In this document: in pieces, positions 12,575 through 22,739 of the stretch
Layout of the letters: each line of letters starts with the position of its first letter
Position numbering within the stretch: position 1 is the first letter of the stretch
DNA from: Desulfuromonadaceae bacterium
GTDB lineage: Bacteria; Desulfobacterota; Desulfuromonadia; Desulfuromonadales; JAHYIW01
Direction of reading: 5' to 3'
Assembly: GCA_019429445.1 (NCBI GenBank)
Contig: JAHYIW010000019.1
Location: 1-64,000, forward strand
Length of the DNA: 64,000 nt
Made by a program: the position numbers and the translations under genes
Notes under the pieces: model-generated
Database searches by the model: none
What the model was told of the DNA's origin: nothing
What the model saw: the letters and a program-made list of their open reading frames with translations, nothing else

Positions 12575-13507
12575 TCACAACACGGTCGAAAAATGTGCCT
12601 TGACGCGATCGACGATCCCGTCACGGCGCAGATGACGTGACGGGAAATCCGTCGCAACTTTCATGATTTTCTCCAGGTAGGTGCGTTGACGCTCAATACC
12701 CTGTCGATAGAGGTTGCCCTCAATATTCCAGCGTTCGCGGAAATGGATCGTCAGAAACCCGTCGATGACCGGAGCAAGGACTCTCAGCCGTTGCTCGACC
12801 AGAGCATAAAAGTCCGGAGTTTTTGTCAGTAGATCCTCCTCATCCAGAAACACGTTGATTCCCCCCTCGCGCAGTTCAAAATAGAGAAAAAGAAGTTTTT
12901 CGAGATAGACCCGATCGGCCATTTGTGCCCAGAGGTCGGCGGCGGCCAACATCCTTGCCGTCAGGGCGCTGGCTGCTTCGGGAAAATCGACCTTTTCCGG
13001 TTCGATTGCGAGGTCGGTACAATCGATCAAACGACATCCCAGCGACAGTTCTTCGGGGGACCGTTGATGCGCGGTGGTGAAAAGCTGAAAAAACATCTGA
13101 CTGCGCTGAACGTGAACCTTGGTGTGTTTTGCCCCGGTTCCCTGCACGTCCTTTGCGTTCTGGATGAATCCGGCATCGTGCAGTAATGCCGCCGCGATCG
13201 AGATTTGCGCAATTGCCGCAGGGACTGCGATGCCGAAACGGGCTGCACCGTGAATCATGCGCATCAGCGCCAGGGCCGTGTCCGTGGCGTGCTGCAGATC
13301 ATGATACTCGGTGCGACATGCGGCGTATCCTGCAACTTCACCCCGGTAGAGACGCACTGTCCATGCCCACGCCGAGGAAATTTTATCTGTATTTTCAGTG
13401 GGATAAATTTGTTTCCAGATCAACAGGACTTCGTTGAGAATGGATTGCGGATCGCGATGATCGAGCAACGCGGCAAGGTCAAGGGGTTTGTTTTGTGCAA
13501 TCGACAT
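12575..13507 (-). CDS. HD-domain hydrolase of unknown substrate
   Basis: A 310-residue protein. The metal ligands of an HD domain are visible: the YHDLQHATDT stretch at about 67-76 and AALLHDAGF at about 106-114, with a later LIDCTDLA. The order (H...HD...D) resembles the metal-dependent phosphohydrolase and cyclic-nucleotide phosphodiesterase superfamily. No GGDEF or sensor domain is fused. The start at 13507 is the family-like MSIAQNK; upstream in-frame codons to 13579 have poor coding character, but no strong ribosome site is seen at either. Convergent with rlmB. Confidence 0.65.
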   Translation of the reverse strand: MSIAQNKPLDLAALLDHRDPQSILNEVLLIWKQIYPTENTDKISSAWAWTVRLYRGEVAGYAACRTEYHDLQHATDTALALMRMIHGAARFGIAVPAAIAQISIAAALLHDAGFIQNAKDVQGTGAKHTKVHVQRSQMFFQLFTTAHQRSPEELSLGCRLIDCTDLAIEPEKVDFPEAASALTARMLAAADLWAQMADRVYLEKLLFLYFELREGGINVFLDEEDLLTKTPDFYALVEQRLRVLAPVIDGFLTIHFRERWNIEGNLYRQGIERQRTYLEKIMKVATDFPSRHLRRDGIVDRVKAHFSTVL

Positions 13508-13603
13508 CGTTGACTTGATCCATATCGGGGAAATATTAACACCAGGATTGATGGTAGTTAATGTTCGGGCCGATTGCAAGTTGAAATTTCAGACGCTATC
13601 GTT

Positions 13604-13756: not shown

Positions 13757-14902
13757 TCAAACCACTGTCAGTTGGACAAAACAGGTTGCGAAACGCCCGC
13801 TTTCCGGAATATAGCAGAGGATCCGTTCGCCTGCTTTAAGCCTCCCGGAGTGGAGCAGTTCCTCCATGATGACAAAGATCGAGGCTGAACCGGTATTCCC
13901 CTTCTCGTACAAATTGGTGAACCAGCGCTGATCAGGAATTTCACAGCCAACAGCCTTCATCTGATCGTAAACCGGCTGACGAAAATAGTGCGATGAAAAG
14001 TGGGGCAAAAACCAGTCAAAGTCCTCTCCGCTGATACCGTACTTTTGTATCAGGCTGGTGAGTGGGCGTCCCACCGTCAGCGGAATGACCTTTTCATTCA
14101 GCAGCTTGACATCCTGCTTCAAAAGAAGCATCCGGTCGCGAATAATATCCTGTGGAGAAGCGGAATCACGCCAGAAGGTCAGGGAACCATCGGGGTTTTT
14201 GTTTGCCCCCATATACATACAGGTTTCCATCTCACTGGCATAGGAGATGATTTCAATCCAGTCAATGCGCAGGGCCAGACGATCGGGCGGGCGTTCAGCG
14301 GTGAGATAGGCTGCCCCGGCACCGTCGGAAAGCATCCAGCGGAGAAAGTCGGCATTGAACGCCAGTTCAGGATTTTTTGCCAGATCACCATGCGGGGGGT
14401 CGGGGAATTCTGACATGCGTCCCCGCATGGTCGGCGAAGCCAGCTCGGAGGCACAGGCGACCGCACTGGCGTGCAACCCCTGGGCGACATTCATGAACGC
14501 ATATTTGAGCGCCATCATTCCGGAGACGCAGACTCCGGCAGTGCTGACGATTTCACACGGGCGGCTGGCCAGTTCGCCGTGAACCATGGAGGCATGTCCC
14601 GGCATCAATTGATCTGCTTGTGATGTTGCGCAGCACAGACAGGTAATGTCATCAGGAGAGAACCCTGGGTATGGATGCAACGCACGAATCGCCTCCGCAG
14701 CCAGCTGTGCATTGGAGTGCGTTGTTGCGCCGGTAGCGGGGTCGATGGCATAGTAGCGCCGTTTAATCCGGTTGTTGCGGAGGATTATATTTTTGGTGCG
14801 GGAGGGTGTGTCATGCACCATCCCGAGGATATTCTCGATAGTATCGTTTTCAACCGGAGCGTTGGGCAAGAATACCGAGATATCGGAAATAAAGACATCC
14901 AT
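13757..14902 (-). CDS. Beta-ketoacyl-ACP synthase III family protein
   Basis: A 381-residue thiolase-fold enzyme. The active-site Cys is at about 125 in STAGVCVSGMMAL, His near 313 in WFLPHFSSHYF, and Asn near 345 in YEKGNTGSASI. This Cys-His-Asn triad is the FabH type. It differs from housekeeping FabH in length (FabH is about 320 residues) and in the first 60 residues, which read like secondary-metabolism members (DarB and OleA-like relatives). It lies 23 bases downstream of the radical SAM gene in the same direction. The inferred role is condensation of an acyl chain for an unknown lipid or small molecule. Confidence 0.82.
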   Translation of the reverse strand: MDVFISDISVFLPNAPVENDTIENILGMVHDTPSRTKNIILRNNRIKRRYYAIDPATGATTHSNAQLAAEAIRALHPYPGFSPDDITCLCCATSQADQLMPGHASMVHGELASRPCEIVSTAGVCVSGMMALKYAFMNVAQGLHASAVACASELASPTMRGRMSEFPDPPHGDLAKNPELAFNADFLRWMLSDGAGAAYLTAERPPDRLALRIDWIEIISYASEMETCMYMGANKNPDGSLTFWRDSASPQDIIRDRMLLLKQDVKLLNEKVIPLTVGRPLTSLIQKYGISGEDFDWFLPHFSSHYFRQPVYDQMKAVGCEIPDQRWFTNLYEKGNTGSASIFVIMEELLHSGRLKAGERILCYIPESGRFATCFVQLTVV

Positions 14903-14925
14903 GAGAATAAATTCCCTTTTTACTA

Positions 14926-16272
14926 CTACAGTTTGGCACCGTGGAGGGTCCGCTGCAGAATGTTTGCATAGCGCAGATAAAATTCTTTTTCGGACAACCT
15001 GGTCGGCATGACAGCGTTCGTCAGGGTGTAATAGTCGAGATCATGGTTGGTGATTCGATCCCTCATTTTATAATAAACCGGCGTTCCGGGCAACGGGGTT
15101 AACACGGTCAGAATCGGCAAGTCGATTATATTGTCGGCAAGGTACTGCTCGAGTAAATCAAAGTCGGTGTGATCGTAGCCGGGGGAGACGATAAAATCGC
15201 CGACGATGGAAATGCCGATTTCGTGAAGGATACGAATTGCTTCGGTGTTGTGGTGTGCGGTATTGCTTTTGTTCAGGGCCTCCAGCCCCTCATTGTTAAT
15301 ATTCTCAAAACCGACGATGACGGAACGCAATCCAATCTCTTTCCAGGCGCGCATCATCTCCGGGTGCTTGACGATTGTGTCAGAGCGGGCATCGGCCATG
15401 AATTGCTTACGGATGCCGCTTTCGCGCAGAGCCGCGCACAGAGCCATTGCATGGTCCGGATCGCCGAACGAATTGGCATCGACCAGGCGAATAAAATTAA
15501 CGTCGGGGAGCAGTTTTATGTCTCTGACGGTGGATGCGATTTCATTGGTCAGGTAACGTCCCCCGGTGAGCGGTTCTATACAACAGAAATTGCACCGATA
15601 GGGGCAGCCGTAAGCGGAGGCAACCATCCCGAACTGGGCACCGACAGCGGAAAGGAGGTATTTGGAACGGTATTTTTCGACCAGGTCGTAACGCGGCGGA
15701 TAGTCTTCATCCAGGTCTGCTTTTCCGTACTGGCGCGGGGTGAACGACAACGTGCGACCGGGTGCGGTGCGGGCAATACCGTGAGGAACGGGGGAGGTCG
15801 AATCGTTTCCCAGCAGCTTGACCAGATCGCGAAAGCTGCGCTTGCCGAGGCCGATAACAATAAAATCGATTTCTTCACGATTAAAAAATTCGGGATCGTT
15901 GCTGGCGTGAATCCCCCCGACGACAATCCTGGCCTGGCTGACTGCGCGAATTTCGCGGGCGATTTTAAGCATGGTGTTGGCTTCGCAGGTCATGCCGGTG
16001 ATGCCGACAATGTCCGGAGCGAAGGTGTTAACCTCATCGACGACAGGATCTGCCGTCGATTTCATGTCGAAGATGCGCACCTCATGCTCGGGAAGAGCAC
16101 CGGCAAGGGTTTCGAGCCCCAGTGGTTCGCCGCGAAAAATAGCTTTTATCGCATCGATTCCATACTCTTCCTCGGGGATGCTGCGGCCACTGTTGGGAGG
16201 ATTGATGAGAAGGACGCGCATGACCGGGAGTGCGGCAGATTCCGGTGTCATTTTGTGATTACACTGCAACAT
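14926..16272 (-). CDS. B12-binding domain radical SAM protein
   Basis: 448 residues. The N-terminal cobalamin-binding-like Rossmann domain spans about 18-155, starting MRVLLINPPNSGRS, with VGGIHASNDPEFF. The radical SAM barrel has the cluster cysteines C223, C227 and C230 in CPYRCNFC. The canonical DxHxxG cobalamin motif is not evident, as in many members. Such enzymes do methylations, ring contractions or other radical chemistry on unactivated carbons. True start is uncertain: ATGs at 16272, 16251 and 16221 all lack a clear ribosome site; the domain begins at 16221. First gene of a pair with the ketoacyl synthase. Confidence 0.87.
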   Translation of the reverse strand: MLQCNHKMTPESAALPVMRVLLINPPNSGRSIPEEEYGIDAIKAIFRGEPLGLETLAGALPEHEVRIFDMKSTADPVVDEVNTFAPDIVGITGMTCEANTMLKIAREIRAVSQARIVVGGIHASNDPEFFNREEIDFIVIGLGKRSFRDLVKLLGNDSTSPVPHGIARTAPGRTLSFTPRQYGKADLDEDYPPRYDLVEKYRSKYLLSAVGAQFGMVASAYGCPYRCNFCCIEPLTGGRYLTNEIASTVRDIKLLPDVNFIRLVDANSFGDPDHAMALCAALRESGIRKQFMADARSDTIVKHPEMMRAWKEIGLRSVIVGFENINNEGLEALNKSNTAHHNTEAIRILHEIGISIVGDFIVSPGYDHTDFDLLEQYLADNIIDLPILTVLTPLPGTPVYYKMRDRITNHDLDYYTLTNAVMPTRLSEKEFYLRYANILQRTLHGAKL

Positions 16273-16579
16273 ATCAGATAAAATCCGTTAACTGTCATTA
16301 GGATTGTTTGAAAACACGCATAATCGCATATTTTGTGATAAATTGTAAATCTCTTTCATGCGTGCGTGGCAATCGATCCGCAGTACCGGATGTTGTCATC
16401 AGCTATCGTTTGCGGCGTCGTATCAGGAAGGAGGGATGGGTTGTGGGCCCCCCCTGTGGGTGCAGGGCTTTATGTTGCGGAGGATTTATATTTGTTGTAG
16501 AATTCCCCTACGAAATATGCATCTTTATCGCTGACAGGATTTTTTCAGTTTGACGCGGTTGAGTGTACTGGAGGACGTG
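16273..16579. other. Intergenic region between divergent genes
   Basis: About 300 bases between the radical SAM gene (minus) and the caspase gene (plus). It is AT-rich near 16300-16350 and has a GGGCCCCCCC run near 16445-16455. Promoters for both directions are expected here, but I see no convincing -35/-10 pair, riboswitch or conserved hairpin. A GGAGG at 16570-16574 serves the caspase gene. Confidence 0.4.
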
Positions 16580-17926
16580 ATGAAATGGTTGGCACAAGGG
16601 ACAGAGGCTCGAATGATGGTCAGAAATGCCGTTTTGTGTATTGTAGCGTGCTTGTTGGTCATTACTTTTCCTGCGCAAAGTGAGGCACGGCGGCAGTGGT
16701 ACGAGGCCTACGGTATTCATGACAAGCATGAACTGACGGCTCCCTCCGCCGTGCCGAAGATGATCGAAGCGCTGGCAGATCGTAACGCCGCCGTGCGCAA
16801 ATCCGCTGTGGGTGTCTTGAGCAAGATTGGCCCGGCTGCCGAGAGCGCCGTGCCGCGCCTGCTCCAGGTGATGGCCGATGATCGTGATGCCAATACGCGC
16901 AAAGCGGCTCTGGTTGCGATCTACAAGATTGGTTATCGCGGTGCAGATTATTTCGCGGCGTTACAAAAATCCGGGCAGCAGGATGCCCACCCCAAGTTGC
17001 GCGCTTATGCCGCAAAGCTGGCGGGGAAGGTTGAGGCGGAGGTTGTGCCGGTGGGGCAGATCGCCCGTTCAGCACAGGCGTCCCCCGGCGGCACCGGAAA
17101 ATTCACTATCAACTTGCCGAAGGCCGCGGAGCAGAATCGTTACGGTATCGCGGTTATTGTTGGCAATCGCAACTATGCCGCCGTAAACAAGGATGTTCCC
17201 AATGTCGATTTTGCGATTAACGACGCCGATGCCATGTACCGTTACGTCACCGAAACGCTCGGTTATCGTGAGGGGAATGTGATCCTGCTCAAGGACGCCA
17301 CCCAGGCCGATTTGATCAGTACGTTCGGGGCCAAGGGAAATTATAAAGGAAAGCTCTACGATTGGCTGCGCCCTGATGAATCGGACGTTTTCGTTTTTTA
17401 TTCGGGGCATGGTGCGCCTGGGCTCAGGGATGGTCGCGGCTATCTGTTGCCGGTCGATGCCGACCCGATGAAGGTTGAACTGAACGGCTATCCTCTCGAT
17501 ACGCTCTACGCCAATATTGGTCAACTCCCCGCCAGGAATGTGACCATGGTCATTGATGCCTGTTTCTCCGGCGGTTCAGCGAGCGGGTCCGTGGTGAGCA
17601 ACGCATCGTCGATTTCGCTTAAAGTGGTCAAGGCGGAGGCCAGTGTACCGCGAGCGACGGTGATCACTGCCGCCGGACTTTCGGAAGTTGCGTCATGGGA
17701 CAAAGAGGCTGAAATGGGGTTGCTGACCAGGAATTTTCTTGAGGGAGTAACCGGGGCAGCAGATGAAGACGGGTACGGCAACGGGGATGGTCGCGTTACG
17801 GTCGCCGAGTTGAAAAAATTTCTCAGTGAGGAAGTGACCTACAAAGCGCGTCGACTCTACGGGCGTGATCAGACGCCACAAGTCACCGGGGATGCGAAGA
17901 AAGTCATCTTTGTCGGTGAGCAATAA
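16580..17926 (+). CDS. Secreted caspase-like (peptidase C14) protein with HEAT repeats
   Basis: 448 residues. The N-terminal hydrophobic segment VRNAVLCIVACLLVITFPAQSEA is a signal peptide or anchor. HEAT-type helical repeats at about 45-150 include AVPKMIEALADRNAAVRKSAV and AVPRLLQVMADDRDANTRKAAL. The caspase domain (about 185-440) starts RYGIAVIVGNRNYA, with catalytic His in VFYSGHGAPG and Cys in IDACFSGGSA. A DEDGYGNGDGRVTVAEL stretch near 405 is an EF-hand-like calcium loop. Such proteins cleave after Arg or Asp and are often regulated by calcium. The start at 16580 follows GGAGG. First gene of a four-gene plus-strand locus. Confidence 0.88.
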   Translation: MKWLAQGTEARMMVRNAVLCIVACLLVITFPAQSEARRQWYEAYGIHDKHELTAPSAVPKMIEALADRNAAVRKSAVGVLSKIGPAAESAVPRLLQVMADDRDANTRKAALVAIYKIGYRGADYFAALQKSGQQDAHPKLRAYAAKLAGKVEAEVVPVGQIARSAQASPGGTGKFTINLPKAAEQNRYGIAVIVGNRNYAAVNKDVPNVDFAINDADAMYRYVTETLGYREGNVILLKDATQADLISTFGAKGNYKGKLYDWLRPDESDVFVFYSGHGAPGLRDGRGYLLPVDADPMKVELNGYPLDTLYANIGQLPARNVTMVIDACFSGGSASGSVVSNASSISLKVVKAEASVPRATVITAAGLSEVASWDKEAEMGLLTRNFLEGVTGAADEDGYGNGDGRVTVAELKKFLSEEVTYKARRLYGRDQTPQVTGDAKKVIFVGEQ

Positions 17927-18073
17927 GCCAGTGTTTGTTTCTTGCCAGGGTCATTCCTTTACGAAAATCGGAATTCAGCTTGTTGATCAACCCTTGATGC
18001 AGTTTTCTGCCTGCCTGTGAATGGATCTGTTGCTTGCGTTGTCGTTTCAACTTTTTTTGTTGGGGGATTTTCG

Positions 18074-20167
18074 ATGTTATTTTTCAGATTGAGCCTGTGC
18101 TGTTTGCTGCCCGTTTCGGTATTACTCGCGTCCTGCGCATCGGCCCCTCACCCGGTCACAAAAAAAGAACTGCAGATTGCCACGCAGTATCCGCCGGTAA
18201 AAACACTGCTCCGTGCAGTGCCGACAGATAAACCTGCGTGGGTTTTCTCTCCTCCCGAAAAAAATGATTACTACGAGTTTTTCGTCGGGGTTTCTTCTGA
18301 AGGGGTTGTCTCCGAGAAAGAGGCGCGCAGTGATGCGTTGCGTGATGCGGTTGAACAATTCGTCAATTACACCGGGGTGAACGTGTCTGTTAAGGAAACG
18401 ATCCGCAAGTCGATTTCCGGGCAACTCAGTCAGGGGCTTGATGGGTCTGTATCTGGTGAAAAAATGGTCAAAATGGGGGCCGATGCCTTTGTCAGCCGGA
18501 TCAAGGCCACGGACTTCTATTTCGAACAGTATGATATCTCCCGCAACGGTATTCATGAAAAAAATGTCTACAAATATTACGTCAAGGCCTCCGTGCCATT
18601 GACTGAGTATGACCGGGTCAGGGAGTGGGCACGGCAGCAGGCGGAGGCCCAGAATAAATCACGCAGTGAAAAAGTTGCCGCAGTCGTCGCTGCCAATGCG
18701 ACAGGATTGTCGCAAGTGGATAATTATATTACCAATGGGCAGGCGCTGGCGGCGTTGTCCGCGATTAGCGCTGAACACCGTCGTTTGCAGTCGCTGATAG
18801 ATTCCGGTGCAGAAGATGCGCTGATCGCCAAAGCGCGCGAACTTCAGGCGCTTCTGCCTGGCCGGGCGAGGGCCGTAAGTTCGCGGTTGATATTGGATTC
18901 AGGGCGGTTCGGGACGACCGAGATCGGTGCTGCGCAGGATGTTGTTTTTAAAGCCTGGGTATGGTTCAAAAGTGATGACGGGGCGTTGCTCCCGGTTGCC
19001 GGACTGCCGCTGAGCATCAATACGGCACGCGGGGCAGAGATCGCCGATACCAGAACCGGTCGTTCAGGTGAAGCGACGTTTTATTTGCCGGCGATTGAAC
19101 CTGGCCAGTATTACGTAAACATTGACTTTGAAAAAGAAGATAATCTCGAGCCGATGATTGGTATCGCGCTGAGAAATGTCGGCACCGAATTTTTAGTGAT
19201 TCAGGGGCAACCGGGGATCGATCTCGCAGTCAAAATCATGGTGAGAAAGTTGTTTGCTGGCTCCACTTACGAGAAACTGGCCGTGAAAAAACTGGAAATA
19301 GGTTCGATCACCTATGGTGACACCCATCGCGGCAGCGGTTTTGCCCTGGAACTCAAGCGGCGCATCAACGAACAGTTGGCGAATATCAGCGGCCTGGAGG
19401 TGATCGTTCCGCAAACCGATGATCGTCAGGAAATGATTGAGCATGCAATTAAAACGCGCGGGATTAGCGCCGTTGCCAAAGGTGGGCTGGGTGCCGCCGC
19501 GACCCATGCCGCGGTTGATGGTGCCGATGCGGCCCTCAACGCAATTTATGCACTGAACGGTCGCGACGTTTTTCTCAATATGGAGTTGAAGGAGGCCGGG
19601 ACTGATCGGCTGCTGGGGGCAGCAAATACCAGCTTTGACAGCTCCCTGCTCCCCCCTGGAATCGACCTTGTCCCGCAGCAGGCAAGGCAGACGTTTGACA
19701 CCGCTGCGCCCCCCACAGTCAACGCGATCAAACTTGAGGTGACCTCGCATCTTGGCGACGGTCAGACTTACCGTTCCGGGGAGACGATTTCCTATCTGGT
19801 CAACTCTGACACCGATGCTTATCTCCTGCTGATTTATGAGGATGTTGCCGGAAATCTGATTCAGCTGCTGCCGAACCATTATTCCGGCGCGGGGTTCTAC
19901 CCAAAGGGGATCTATCTCGAAGTGCCCGACAAAGCAGATCGTGAGCGCTTTGAATTCACCATTGCCGAGCCTTTCGGGCTGGAACACGTCTGGGCTTTTG
20001 CGGCGACGCAAAAATTTCCGGAATTGGCTGGAGACGAGCTGGAAAATGGTCTGAAACTGTTGCACGGTTCTTTCAGCTCAATCCGGGACAAACTCAGAAA
20101 ATCAGCAGAACTTAATGGTTCTGCTTACGGCGAAGCGCATTCGATGATCACGACTGTTGCCAACTAA
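18074..20167 (+). CDS. Large lipoprotein with LPP20 and DUF4384 domains
   Basis: About 697 residues. A lipoprotein signal ends in the lipobox LLASC near residue 17. A LPP20/FlgP-like domain (about 35-200) has KPAWVFSPP and then FFVGVSSEG..EKEARSDALRDAVEQF. A beta-rich middle part follows (about 280-420). Near the C-terminus SHLGDGQTYRSGETISYLVNSDTDAYLLLIYEDVAGNLIQLLPN is a DUF4384 domain, which elsewhere occurs next to or fused with caspase and kinase domains. The start at 18074 follows GGGGGA. Likely outer-membrane anchored; function unknown. Confidence 0.8.
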   Translation: MLFFRLSLCCLLPVSVLLASCASAPHPVTKKELQIATQYPPVKTLLRAVPTDKPAWVFSPPEKNDYYEFFVGVSSEGVVSEKEARSDALRDAVEQFVNYTGVNVSVKETIRKSISGQLSQGLDGSVSGEKMVKMGADAFVSRIKATDFYFEQYDISRNGIHEKNVYKYYVKASVPLTEYDRVREWARQQAEAQNKSRSEKVAAVVAANATGLSQVDNYITNGQALAALSAISAEHRRLQSLIDSGAEDALIAKARELQALLPGRARAVSSRLILDSGRFGTTEIGAAQDVVFKAWVWFKSDDGALLPVAGLPLSINTARGAEIADTRTGRSGEATFYLPAIEPGQYYVNIDFEKEDNLEPMIGIALRNVGTEFLVIQGQPGIDLAVKIMVRKLFAGSTYEKLAVKKLEIGSITYGDTHRGSGFALELKRRINEQLANISGLEVIVPQTDDRQEMIEHAIKTRGISAVAKGGLGAAATHAAVDGADAALNAIYALNGRDVFLNMELKEAGTDRLLGAANTSFDSSLLPPGIDLVPQQARQTFDTAAPPTVNAIKLEVTSHLGDGQTYRSGETISYLVNSDTDAYLLLIYEDVAGNLIQLLPNHYSGAGFYPKGIYLEVPDKADRERFEFTIAEPFGLEHVWAFAATQKFPELAGDELENGLKLLHGSFSSIRDKLRKSAELNGSAYGEAHSMITTVAN

Positions 20168-20213
20168 TCTTATTAACACATCGGCTTTGGCCGAAACTAC
20201 TCAGGAGGAAAAA

Positions 20214-20867
20214 ATGAAGAAGCTTAGTGGATTTTTAATTGCCGGTCTGGCGATGTTTCTGCTCTTTGGCTGCGGCGGCGGTACCGTTCAGCATGAAATG
20301 AAAGCTGCGATGGATACTGAGGAGCTGATTCAGACCTCGCAGCCGCAGCGTCCGGTCTGGACGATGTCGATTCCTGATGCCGAGGGGGGCAAGATGTTCT
20401 TTGTCGGCACCTCCGATCGGTACAAGACCGAAGCTTCCGCGCGGGAAAGTGCCGGGCGCGGTGTGACCGAGGAAGTTGTCAAGTATATGGGGACGCTGGT
20501 CAAAAAGAAGTTTGAAGAGGCCAAAGTTTCCTATGGTCAGGAAAGTGACGCTATCGATCCGACCGCTGCTGCCCGCGAGTTTACCAAGCAACTTGCCACC
20601 AATATGGCGAAACGGGTCAAGGTCAAGGAATATTACTTTGAAAAATACCGCAACCCCACCGGGTCGTATTTTCAGTACTTTGCGCTTGGCTATGTGCCGG
20701 CCGAAGAGATCGATCTGGCCTACAAGGACACCGTGAAGAACATGGCTCGTGAAGCAGACAAGGCAGCGCAAAAAGCCAAAGAAGAGAATGATGAGTTTGC
20801 CAAAAAACAGGCTGAAAAGCAGGCTTCCTTCTTCAAGGATATGCAGGAACAAGGTCTGATCGAATAG
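20214..20867 (+). CDS. LPP20 family lipoprotein
   Basis: 217 residues. The signal with lipobox is MKKLSGFLIAGLAMFLLFGC, Cys near residue 20. The LPP20-like core has RPVWTMSIPDAEGGKMFFVGTSD, then YKTEASARESAGRGVTEEVVKYMG, which parallels the corresponding part of the preceding lipoprotein. The C-terminal 50 residues are a charged coiled coil (NMAREADKAAQKAKEENDEF). A strong AGGAGG precedes ATG 20214. The paralogy with the upstream gene suggests the two interact or form a mixed oligomer. Confidence 0.82.
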   Translation: MKKLSGFLIAGLAMFLLFGCGGGTVQHEMKAAMDTEELIQTSQPQRPVWTMSIPDAEGGKMFFVGTSDRYKTEASARESAGRGVTEEVVKYMGTLVKKKFEEAKVSYGQESDAIDPTAAAREFTKQLATNMAKRVKVKEYYFEKYRNPTGSYFQYFALGYVPAEEIDLAYKDTVKNMAREADKAAQKAKEENDEFAKKQAEKQASFFKDMQEQGLIE

Positions 20868-20915: not shown

Positions 20916-20978
20916 CGCCCTGTCCAGGTTGCCGACGCGCGACGATGCGCGAAAATGATTTGAATGAGGAGCTTTGCA

Positions 20979-22739
20979 ATGAGGTTTAAATTGTGGCATG
21001 GCATTCTGATGATTGTCTGCATGAGCAGTTTGGCGTACGCACAGGGCAGTGATGTTGACCGGTTTTTTTCAGATACTGATCAGGAAACGGCGCATTTTGG
21101 CAGCATTGAGGATGAAATGCGGCGCGAGATGGATGCGTTCTATGCTGAATCAGCCCAGGAAATCCAGTCGTTCAAGGATGAGCGTGACCGCGATTTTGCT
21201 GAATTTTTGAAAGAAAAATGGCAGGCGTTTGACGAGTTCGAGGGGTTGGTCAAAGATCCAACCCCCAAACCGGTCAAGTTGCCCAAAGCGGCTAAAAAAC
21301 CTGACGACAAGATTGCGCCGCTGGGACAGACGGTCCCGCCACCTTCTGCCCCGGTTCTTCCACCACCACCGGTTGTTGTCCTGCCACAAGCTAGACCTGA
21401 ACTACCGGTTGCTGTTGTCCCGTCACCGCCTGAACCTGAACCACCAGTTATTGTTGTCCCGTCACCGCCTGAACCTGAACCACCGGTTATTGTTGTCCCG
21501 TCACAGCCTGAACCTGAACCACCGGTTATTGTTGTCCCGTCACAGCCAGAACCTGAACTACCGGTTATTGTTGTCCCGTCACAGCCTGAACCTGAACTAC
21601 CGGTTGTTGTTGTCCCGTCACAGCCTGAACCCCCGACCGACGTTCCGCAGCCAGCAACGCTTGAGGTTGCATATCTGGGGCGTATGCTGCGTGTGGTGTG
21701 CGATCCATCGTTGGCGGTTACGACTGGAACAAAGATCACCAATCGTGAAATCAGCGCTTACTGGGAAAAAATTGGTACGGCCGACTTTGGGCCGATGCTG
21801 TCCAGCCTGTTGACAGTCAAGGAAGCCTTGCAGTTGAACGACTGGGGCTACTTCCAGTTTGTGCAGGAAGCGGGAGAAGCGTTGCACGGTCCGGGGAATG
21901 ATGCGCAGCTCTTTGCCTGGTTCGCACTGACGAAGTCAGGCTATCGAGTCAGGGTTGGCTACAGCGACAATCGCGTTTTTCTGCTCGCTCCGATCGACAG
22001 TCTGGTTTATCAGGCACCCTACTACACGCTCGATGGAACCAGATATTACAACATCAGTTATTTTCGTGATCAGCGCAAGCCGGGCAAAGTTTACACGTAC
22101 AGTAAAGACTATCCCCGCGCCGAGCGCCTGCTGTCACTCAAGTTGCCTCTCGTGCCGCGGGTTGGCGAGGGACGTGAAGTGCGGAGCTTGCATTTCCTTT
22201 ATCAAAACAAGGAATTTACCGTTCCCGTTAGCTACAACCGGAACGCCCTCGTTTTTTACGATAGTTATCCCCAGACTGAATGGGCAATCTATTTCGCCGC
22301 TCCGTTGGCCACCGAGGCTGAACAAAGCTTGATTGATGGCCTGGGCAAACTGGTCGCTGGCAAGAGTGAAACTGAAGCGGTTAATATGCTATTGCGCTTT
22401 GCGCAGACGGCCTTTGAATATCAAACGGACGATGAGCAATTCGGTCGTGAAAAATACATGTTTGCCGAAGAGACGGTTGCGTTTCGTTATTCCGATTGCG
22501 AGGATCGATCAATTCTGTTCAGCTATCTGGTGACCAGGATTGTTGGACTGGAAGTGGTTGGCGTCCACTTCCCCGGACATATTGCGACCGCAGTCAACTT
22601 TACCGAAAAGGTCGAAGGGGATGCTATCCTTGTCGATGGAAAACGCTTTGTCGTTTGTGACCCGACCTACATCAACGCGAATATCGGGATGATGATGCCA
22701 CAGTTCAAAGAGGGGAATCCAGAAATCATTCGCTTCTAA
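20979..22739 (+). CDS. Exported protein with proline-rich repeat stalk and transglutaminase-like domain
   Basis: 586 residues. The signal peptide is MRFKLWHGILMIVCMSSLAYA. A charged helical region (about 20-90) follows, with DEMRREMDAFYAESAQEIQSF and KDERDRDFAEFLKEKW. Then comes a proline stalk with repeats of PEPEPPVIVVPSQ (about 130-220). The C-terminal part (about 230-586) ends in a transglutaminase-like core: YSDCEDRSILFSYLV supplies the Cys and HFPGHIATAVNF the His, with a later DPTY. Such cores act as peptidases or crosslinking enzymes, or are inactive binding folds. The start at 20979 follows GAGGAG. Last gene of the locus. Confidence 0.8.
   Translation: MRFKLWHGILMIVCMSSLAYAQGSDVDRFFSDTDQETAHFGSIEDEMRREMDAFYAESAQEIQSFKDERDRDFAEFLKEKWQAFDEFEGLVKDPTPKPVKLPKAAKKPDDKIAPLGQTVPPPSAPVLPPPPVVVLPQARPELPVAVVPSPPEPEPPVIVVPSPPEPEPPVIVVPSQPEPEPPVIVVPSQPEPELPVIVVPSQPEPELPVVVVPSQPEPPTDVPQPATLEVAYLGRMLRVVCDPSLAVTTGTKITNREISAYWEKIGTADFGPMLSSLLTVKEALQLNDWGYFQFVQEAGEALHGPGNDAQLFAWFALTKSGYRVRVGYSDNRVFLLAPIDSLVYQAPYYTLDGTRYYNISYFRDQRKPGKVYTYSKDYPRAERLLSLKLPLVPRVGEGREVRSLHFLYQNKEFTVPVSYNRNALVFYDSYPQTEWAIYFAAPLATEAEQSLIDGLGKLVAGKSETEAVNMLLRFAQTAFEYQTDDEQFGREKYMFAEETVAFRYSDCEDRSILFSYLVTRIVGLEVVGVHFPGHIATAVNFTEKVEGDAILVDGKRFVVCDPTYINANIGMMMPQFKEGNPEIIRF
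21429..21623 (+). repeat. Five tandem 39-bp units encoding the proline stalk
   Basis: Units start at 21429, 21468, 21507, 21546 and 21585, each 39 bases and encoding 13 residues of the type PEPEPPVIVVPSQ. A degenerate unit precedes (from about 21390) and a partial one follows. Differences between units are mostly single bases, so the array is recent and likely variable in length between strains. Confidence 0.9.

Follow-up and report, generated by a model that had tools for sequence, protein, structure and literature searches.

A StlD/DarB-family ketosynthase and a B12-type radical SAM protein occupying the DarA slot in the Desulfuromonadales

The Gene Pair and Its Surroundings

The window considered here, a stretch of 64,000 nucleotides from a Desulfuromonadaceae genome (contig JAHYIW010000019.1 of assembly GCA_019429445.1), carries on its minus strand a gene for a B12-binding/radical SAM protein (14926–16272, hereafter rSAM), followed by a gene for a ketoacyl synthase III (KAS III; 13757–14902, 381 aa). 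The original prediction had placed the synthase 23 bases after the radical SAM gene, and both open reading frames as well as the gap (14903–14925) are found as described; in relatives the gap measures 8–65 nt, and once 186 nt. Conservation of the pair, which had been named as a check, is evident across the order: among 136 genomes, KAS III occurs in 44 and rSAM in 42, with rSAM present in 41 of the 44 KAS III genomes (p = 5e-30). Where the loci of this group are long enough to judge, the rSAM gene lies directly upstream of the KAS III gene, and a mirror-tree comparison shows correlated distances for both proteins (r = 0.85, permutation p = 2e-4), a value to which the shared ancestry of the genomes contributes. 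One rSAM-DarB locus assigned to a Verrucomicrobia MAG (L116) is nested in the Desulfuromonadales clade, suggesting misbinning or a recent transfer.

The product of a minus-strand gene 177 nt after KAS III (12575–13579) weakly resembles an HD domain (Npun_R2479-like, 32 bits, below the cut-off); only within the same genus is this gene kept in the same position. Divergent from the rSAM gene, the plus strand encodes a HEAT-repeat and caspase-like (Peptidase_C14) protein (16550–17926), then in a row a DUF4384-containing protein (18017–20167) and a lipoprotein-like protein (20157–20867), and further on a 591-aa protein (20964–22739) with several near-identical proline-rich repeats of the VVVPSPPEPE type and no Pfam match. 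Besides DarB, the only conserved neighbor of rSAM in relatives is a PNPOx-like FMN protein of 134 aa, which was not seen at the window locus; it lies directly upstream of rSAM in about nine relatives (L052 11031–11435 and equivalents) and could have a role in electron transfer.

The KAS III protein reaches 542.6 bits against the NCBIfam StlD/DarB profile NF005293 (cut-off 450) and 448.5 bits against the narrow DarB exception model NF053539 (cut-off 550), and is therefore a member of the StlD/DarB family, whose enzymes supply the 1,3-cyclohexanediones for dialkylresorcinols, outside the narrow DarB model. The closest solved structure is StlD (5gk0; PDB search, E 5.6e-121), with 48% identity over the whole length, while identity to the other KAS III proteins of the host genome is 21–32% only. 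The predicted Cys-His-Asn triad is present as Cys125 (14528–14530), His301 (14000–14002) and Asn336 in the motif KGNTGSAS (13895–13897), all encoded on the minus strand and invariant in the alignment including StlD, as is E153, the counterpart of a StlD glutamate. A housekeeping FabH function is rejected by the profile scores (57.6 bits against TIGR00747, cut-off 292); this agrees with the predicted non-FabH N-terminus, and the protein does not cluster with FabH and is placed near DarB.

The rSAM open reading frame spans 448 codons, but orthologs begin at Met18 (16221), so this is the probable true start and the protein probably has 431 residues. Upstream, a consensus scan gave a weak extended -10 promoter-like match (16320–16349, minus strand), and a search of the upstream region for RNA structure or Rfam elements found none. 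Pfam identifies a B12-binding domain (70.9 bits, cut-off 32.1) and a Radical_SAM domain (50.5 bits, cut-off 29.5), the latter with the CX3CX2C [4Fe-4S] motif (C206, C210 and C213, numbered from Met18; 15583–15606, minus strand) invariant in 41 orthologs, so that both hallmarks of a cobalamin-dependent radical SAM enzyme are present. A Cys79-Glu80 pair (15982–15987, minus strand), found in 41 of 41 sequences, is located on the loop that follows strand 3 in the B12-type domain, the place where the residue under the cobalt is found in class 1 enzymes (PMC13331322); that the pair plays this part here is speculation. The AlphaFold model (pLDDT 91.7) shows a full-length fold of the AprD4/MgmA/TsrM/OxsB type, matching AprD4 best and then MgmA, TsrM, OxsB and CysS. 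AprD4 reportedly needs no cobalamin.

No NCBIfam family cut-off is reached by rSAM. Its nearest profiles are the hopanoid C-3 methylase HpnR (TIGR04367, 177 bits) and then the anaerobic cyclase BchE (TIGR02026, 116 bits, cut-off 481), and its nearest paralogs within the order are likewise HpnR-like. Given that most characterized cobalamin-dependent radical SAM enzymes are methylases (PMC13142503), these similarities would suit a C-methylase or a rearranging enzyme acting on a DarB product that need not, or cannot, be aromatized, to give an altered head group such as a C-methylated cyclohexanedione or resorcinol. Against this, the HpnR cut-off of 650 bits is far from reached and the best solved fold is that of the non-methylating AprD4 (Z 33.9, compared with 27.8–29.9 for the methylases and OxsB), although fold is no proof of function.

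Alternative Partners of DarB in One Genomic Slot

A fact that the original prediction did not include is that rSAM takes the place of DarA. In Azoarcus the darA gene, encoding a “DAR-aromatase,” lies directly before darB (PMC3949708), and darA mutants make no resorcinol (PMC6403133). In the window genome a search for DarA gave a best match of E = 0.13 and found no such protein, the slot being occupied by rSAM. Among 80 named DarB loci from a scan of GTDB genomes, the gene beside DarB is rSAM in 34 and DarA in 42, with no locus having both; in the other four the upstream sequence is missing at a contig end or no partner is recognizable, and in Brenneria (L191) neither is found near DarB. The same picture emerges across the phylum, where all 32 of the DarB genomes among 395 have exactly one of the two (rSAM 19, DarA 13, together 0), counting as DarA one genome (G181) that seemed to have neither, since its DarA is interrupted by a contig end. 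Within the order, a single genome of 136 (G098) encodes DarA, with DarB and without rSAM.

The two partners have also been exchanged repeatedly. Mapped onto the DarB/KAS III tree, the partner label requires about four changes, at least three of which are forced by the starred branches. A single origin of the rSAM partner in this tree is rejected by the AU test: holding all rSAM-type DarB sequences as one clade costs 100 log-likelihood units (p-AU 4.1e-5). The DarA-bearing Desulfatitalea, Desulfoluna and a Flavobacteriales MAG fragment branch inside the rSAM clade, and in one genus (g281) both partner types occur, in one genome each. The exchange cannot be put down to a lack of oxygen alone, since strict anaerobes such as Desulfocapsa and Desulfatitalea have DarA.

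Functional replacement would be expected to leave such a pattern of recurrent exchange in one slot, and since rSAM sits where relatives have DarA, it is probably the DarA step that it has replaced. The DarA model has a WrbA/flavodoxin-like fold with additional C-terminal helices, which makes it plausible that this step is a redox reaction. The mutual exclusion identifies alternative partners and is not proof of identical chemistry; it would fit equally well if rSAM channeled the ring into another product that is not aromatic. However, DarH (see below) is kept whichever partner is present, and DarA-type genes have returned to the rSAM clade; both points speak for a product that is interchangeable. 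On balance we favor functional replacement of DarA as the most likely reading, and hold it to be fairly probable, while methylation, rearrangement or diversion of the ring by rSAM appears rather unlikely.

A Probable Flexirubin-Like Pathway Elsewhere in the Genome

The absence of acyl carrier protein (ACP) and other lipid genes beside the pair, as remarked in the original prediction, is true within the window but misleading for the genome as a whole. In many relatives the pair is convergent to an operon for an ACP, an ABC permease, an ABC ATPase, a BtrH-like protein, a small conserved protein, PagL, two ketosynthases, a further ACP, an acyltransferase and a glycosyltransferase. The window genome has the same operon on a separate contig (C1), so the lack of such genes is only local. 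The BtrH-like protein of C1 is DarH, an acyltransferase known from flexirubin-type clusters (NCBIfam, 473 bits, cut-off 300), and the small conserved protein is DarG (149 bits, cut-off 70); both of these components of the DarA-DarB dialkylresorcinol operon are therefore encoded there.

The C1 region further encodes an ammonia-lyase-family protein, an AMP-dependent (CoA-ligase-like) ligase, a phytoene-desaturase-like protein, an ApeI-like dehydratase, a thioesterase, LolA and an MMPL protein, and so holds the flexirubin/aryl-polyene set of ketosynthases, dehydratase, ACP, thioesterase, acyltransferase, LolA and MMPL exporter. The ammonia lyase scores below the cut-offs both of the FlxA tyrosine ammonia-lyase equivalog (477.8 bits, cut-off 700) and of the histidine ammonia-lyase subfamily (505 compared with 524), and is accordingly placed only in the ammonia-lyase family. 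Three consecutive further radical SAM genes with B12-type domains lie inside the polyene cluster (L102 9828–13917), the middle one encoding a full member of the TIGR04072 “ladderane” family (640 bits, cut-off 360).

The association between the pair and this cluster is strong. Across the 136 genomes of the order, KAS III and DarH are found together in 41, each without the other in 3 and neither in 89 (p = 1.5e-27), the discordant genomes being mostly fragmented assemblies, and KAS III co-occurs near-completely with the polyene ketosynthase as well. DarG, DarH, ACPs and ketosynthases make up, together with the pair as its resorcinol arm, a larger aryl-polyene/dialkylresorcinol pathway, and we regard the assignment of KAS III to the DarB family and its placement in a flexirubin-like pathway as well supported and very probably correct. 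A stand-alone pathway of two genes finds no support.

Two further readings can be weighed against this distribution. Independently of the polyene cluster, the pair might produce a free small molecule that acts as a signal, either a cyclohexanedione or a dialkylresorcinol, as in Photorhabdus asymbiotica. Such compounds are signals in Photorhabdus (PMC4414361), and in the window genome and one family (f7) the pair and the DarH cluster lie apart; the pair's near-complete co-occurrence with DarH and the polyene ketosynthase, and its position adjoining the polyene cluster in many relatives, nevertheless make this improbable. An OleA-type head-to-head condensation toward a hydrocarbon, for which only the KAS III fold speaks, is rejected by the match to the StlD/DarB model at 542 bits and by the linkage to DarG and DarH, and we consider it to have hardly any chance of being correct. 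The general expectation of an unusual lipid, hydrocarbon or signal thus survives in part: the pair is a conserved unit, and an unusual acyl-derived metabolite remains the expected product, whereas the hydrocarbon is to be dropped.

Proposed Pathway and Comparison with Known Systems

We suggest, with somewhat better than even confidence, that the pair builds the ring in an anaerobic flexirubin-like lipid pathway and that rSAM there replaces DarA. Head-to-head joining of two acyl units from fatty acids by the DarB-family KAS III would give a (4-carboxy-)2,5-dialkylcyclohexane-1,3-dione, consistent with a 4-carboxy-cyclohexanedione as the DarB product (PMC5515871) and with cyclohexanediones as intermediates of the dialkylresorcinol pathway (PMC4414361). 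An action of rSAM on the KAS III product fits the data. The radical SAM protein may then take the DarA step, converting the cyclohexanedione to a dialkylresorcinol by two-electron oxidation, possibly with decarboxylation: a 5'-deoxyadenosyl radical would abstract a ring hydrogen, and oxidation, perhaps with loss of CO2 as in HemN, would give the resorcinol. The conversion of a cyclohexanedione ring to a resorcinol is a two-electron oxidation. DarH would esterify the resorcinol with an aryl-polyene acid from the C1 cluster, and the ester would be exported by the ABC/MMPL/LolA system.

More tentatively, rSAM could be a B12-type radical SAM aromatase of a kind not described before, converting the (4-carboxy-)cyclohexanedione to the resorcinol through abstraction of a hydrogen and either oxidation or oxidative decarboxylation; to this specific chemistry we give slightly less than an even chance. 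This would be a non-orthologous replacement of the flavodoxin-like DarA, parallel to HemN/HemF and BchE/AcsF. Within the literature that was searched, no paper was found to connect a radical SAM protein with DarB. The gene pair provides a testable prediction for an uncharacterized radical SAM family, namely that it does DarA's job; if true, cyclohexanedione aromatization would be added to the chemistry of B12-type radical enzymes, and flexirubin-like lipids would extend to strictly anaerobic Desulfuromonadales, Syntrophaceae, some Desulfobacterales and one Nitrospirota MAG.

The components of this scheme have relatives in several known systems. The StlD of Photorhabdus (5gk0) shares with KAS III its whole-length similarity, the same triad and the glutamate, while its partner enzyme and genomic setting differ. 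Like HpnR, BchE and AprD4, rSAM combines a B12-binding-type N-terminal domain with a radical SAM barrel, but it has the invariant Cys-Glu after strand 3, a new genomic partner and scores far below the family cut-offs. The dar locus of Azoarcus sp. BH72, which makes arcuflavin, has DarB, a small conserved protein (DarG in NCBIfam), a BtrH-like acyltransferase (DarH in NCBIfam), the ABC ATPase and permease, ACP, ketosynthase and the coupling to an aryl-polyene cluster in common with the genes described here (PMC3949708); its order is darA-darB-darD-darE-darF-..-darI-darC-darJ (PMC3949708), whereas here a B12-type radical SAM gene stands ahead of darB in place of darA and, in the window genome, the pair and the rest of the cluster are on different contigs. 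The flexirubin clusters of Chitinophaga pinensis and Flavobacterium johnsoniae (PMC3992019) share the ammonia lyase, LolA, acyltransferases, ketosynthases and DarB; they differ in having darA, and the cluster described here differs in an ammonia lyase below the FlxA cut-off (478 against 700) and in the extra B12-type radical SAM genes of its polyene part.

A likeness to the C1 polyene cluster in content is seen in the “ladderane-like” FASII clusters of Geobacter, Pelobacter and Desulfotalea (PMC2649909), which have radical SAM proteins including TIGR04072, phytoene-desaturase-like and CoA-ligase-like proteins, a glycosyltransferase and multiple FabF in common with it. To these the present order adds DarG, DarH and the ammonia-lyase-family protein, a combination that points to aryl-polyene/resorcinol lipids over ladderanes. 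If the proposed pathway is true, the “ladderane-like” clusters of Geobacter and Pelobacter (PMC2649909) may likewise make aryl-polyene/resorcinol lipids.
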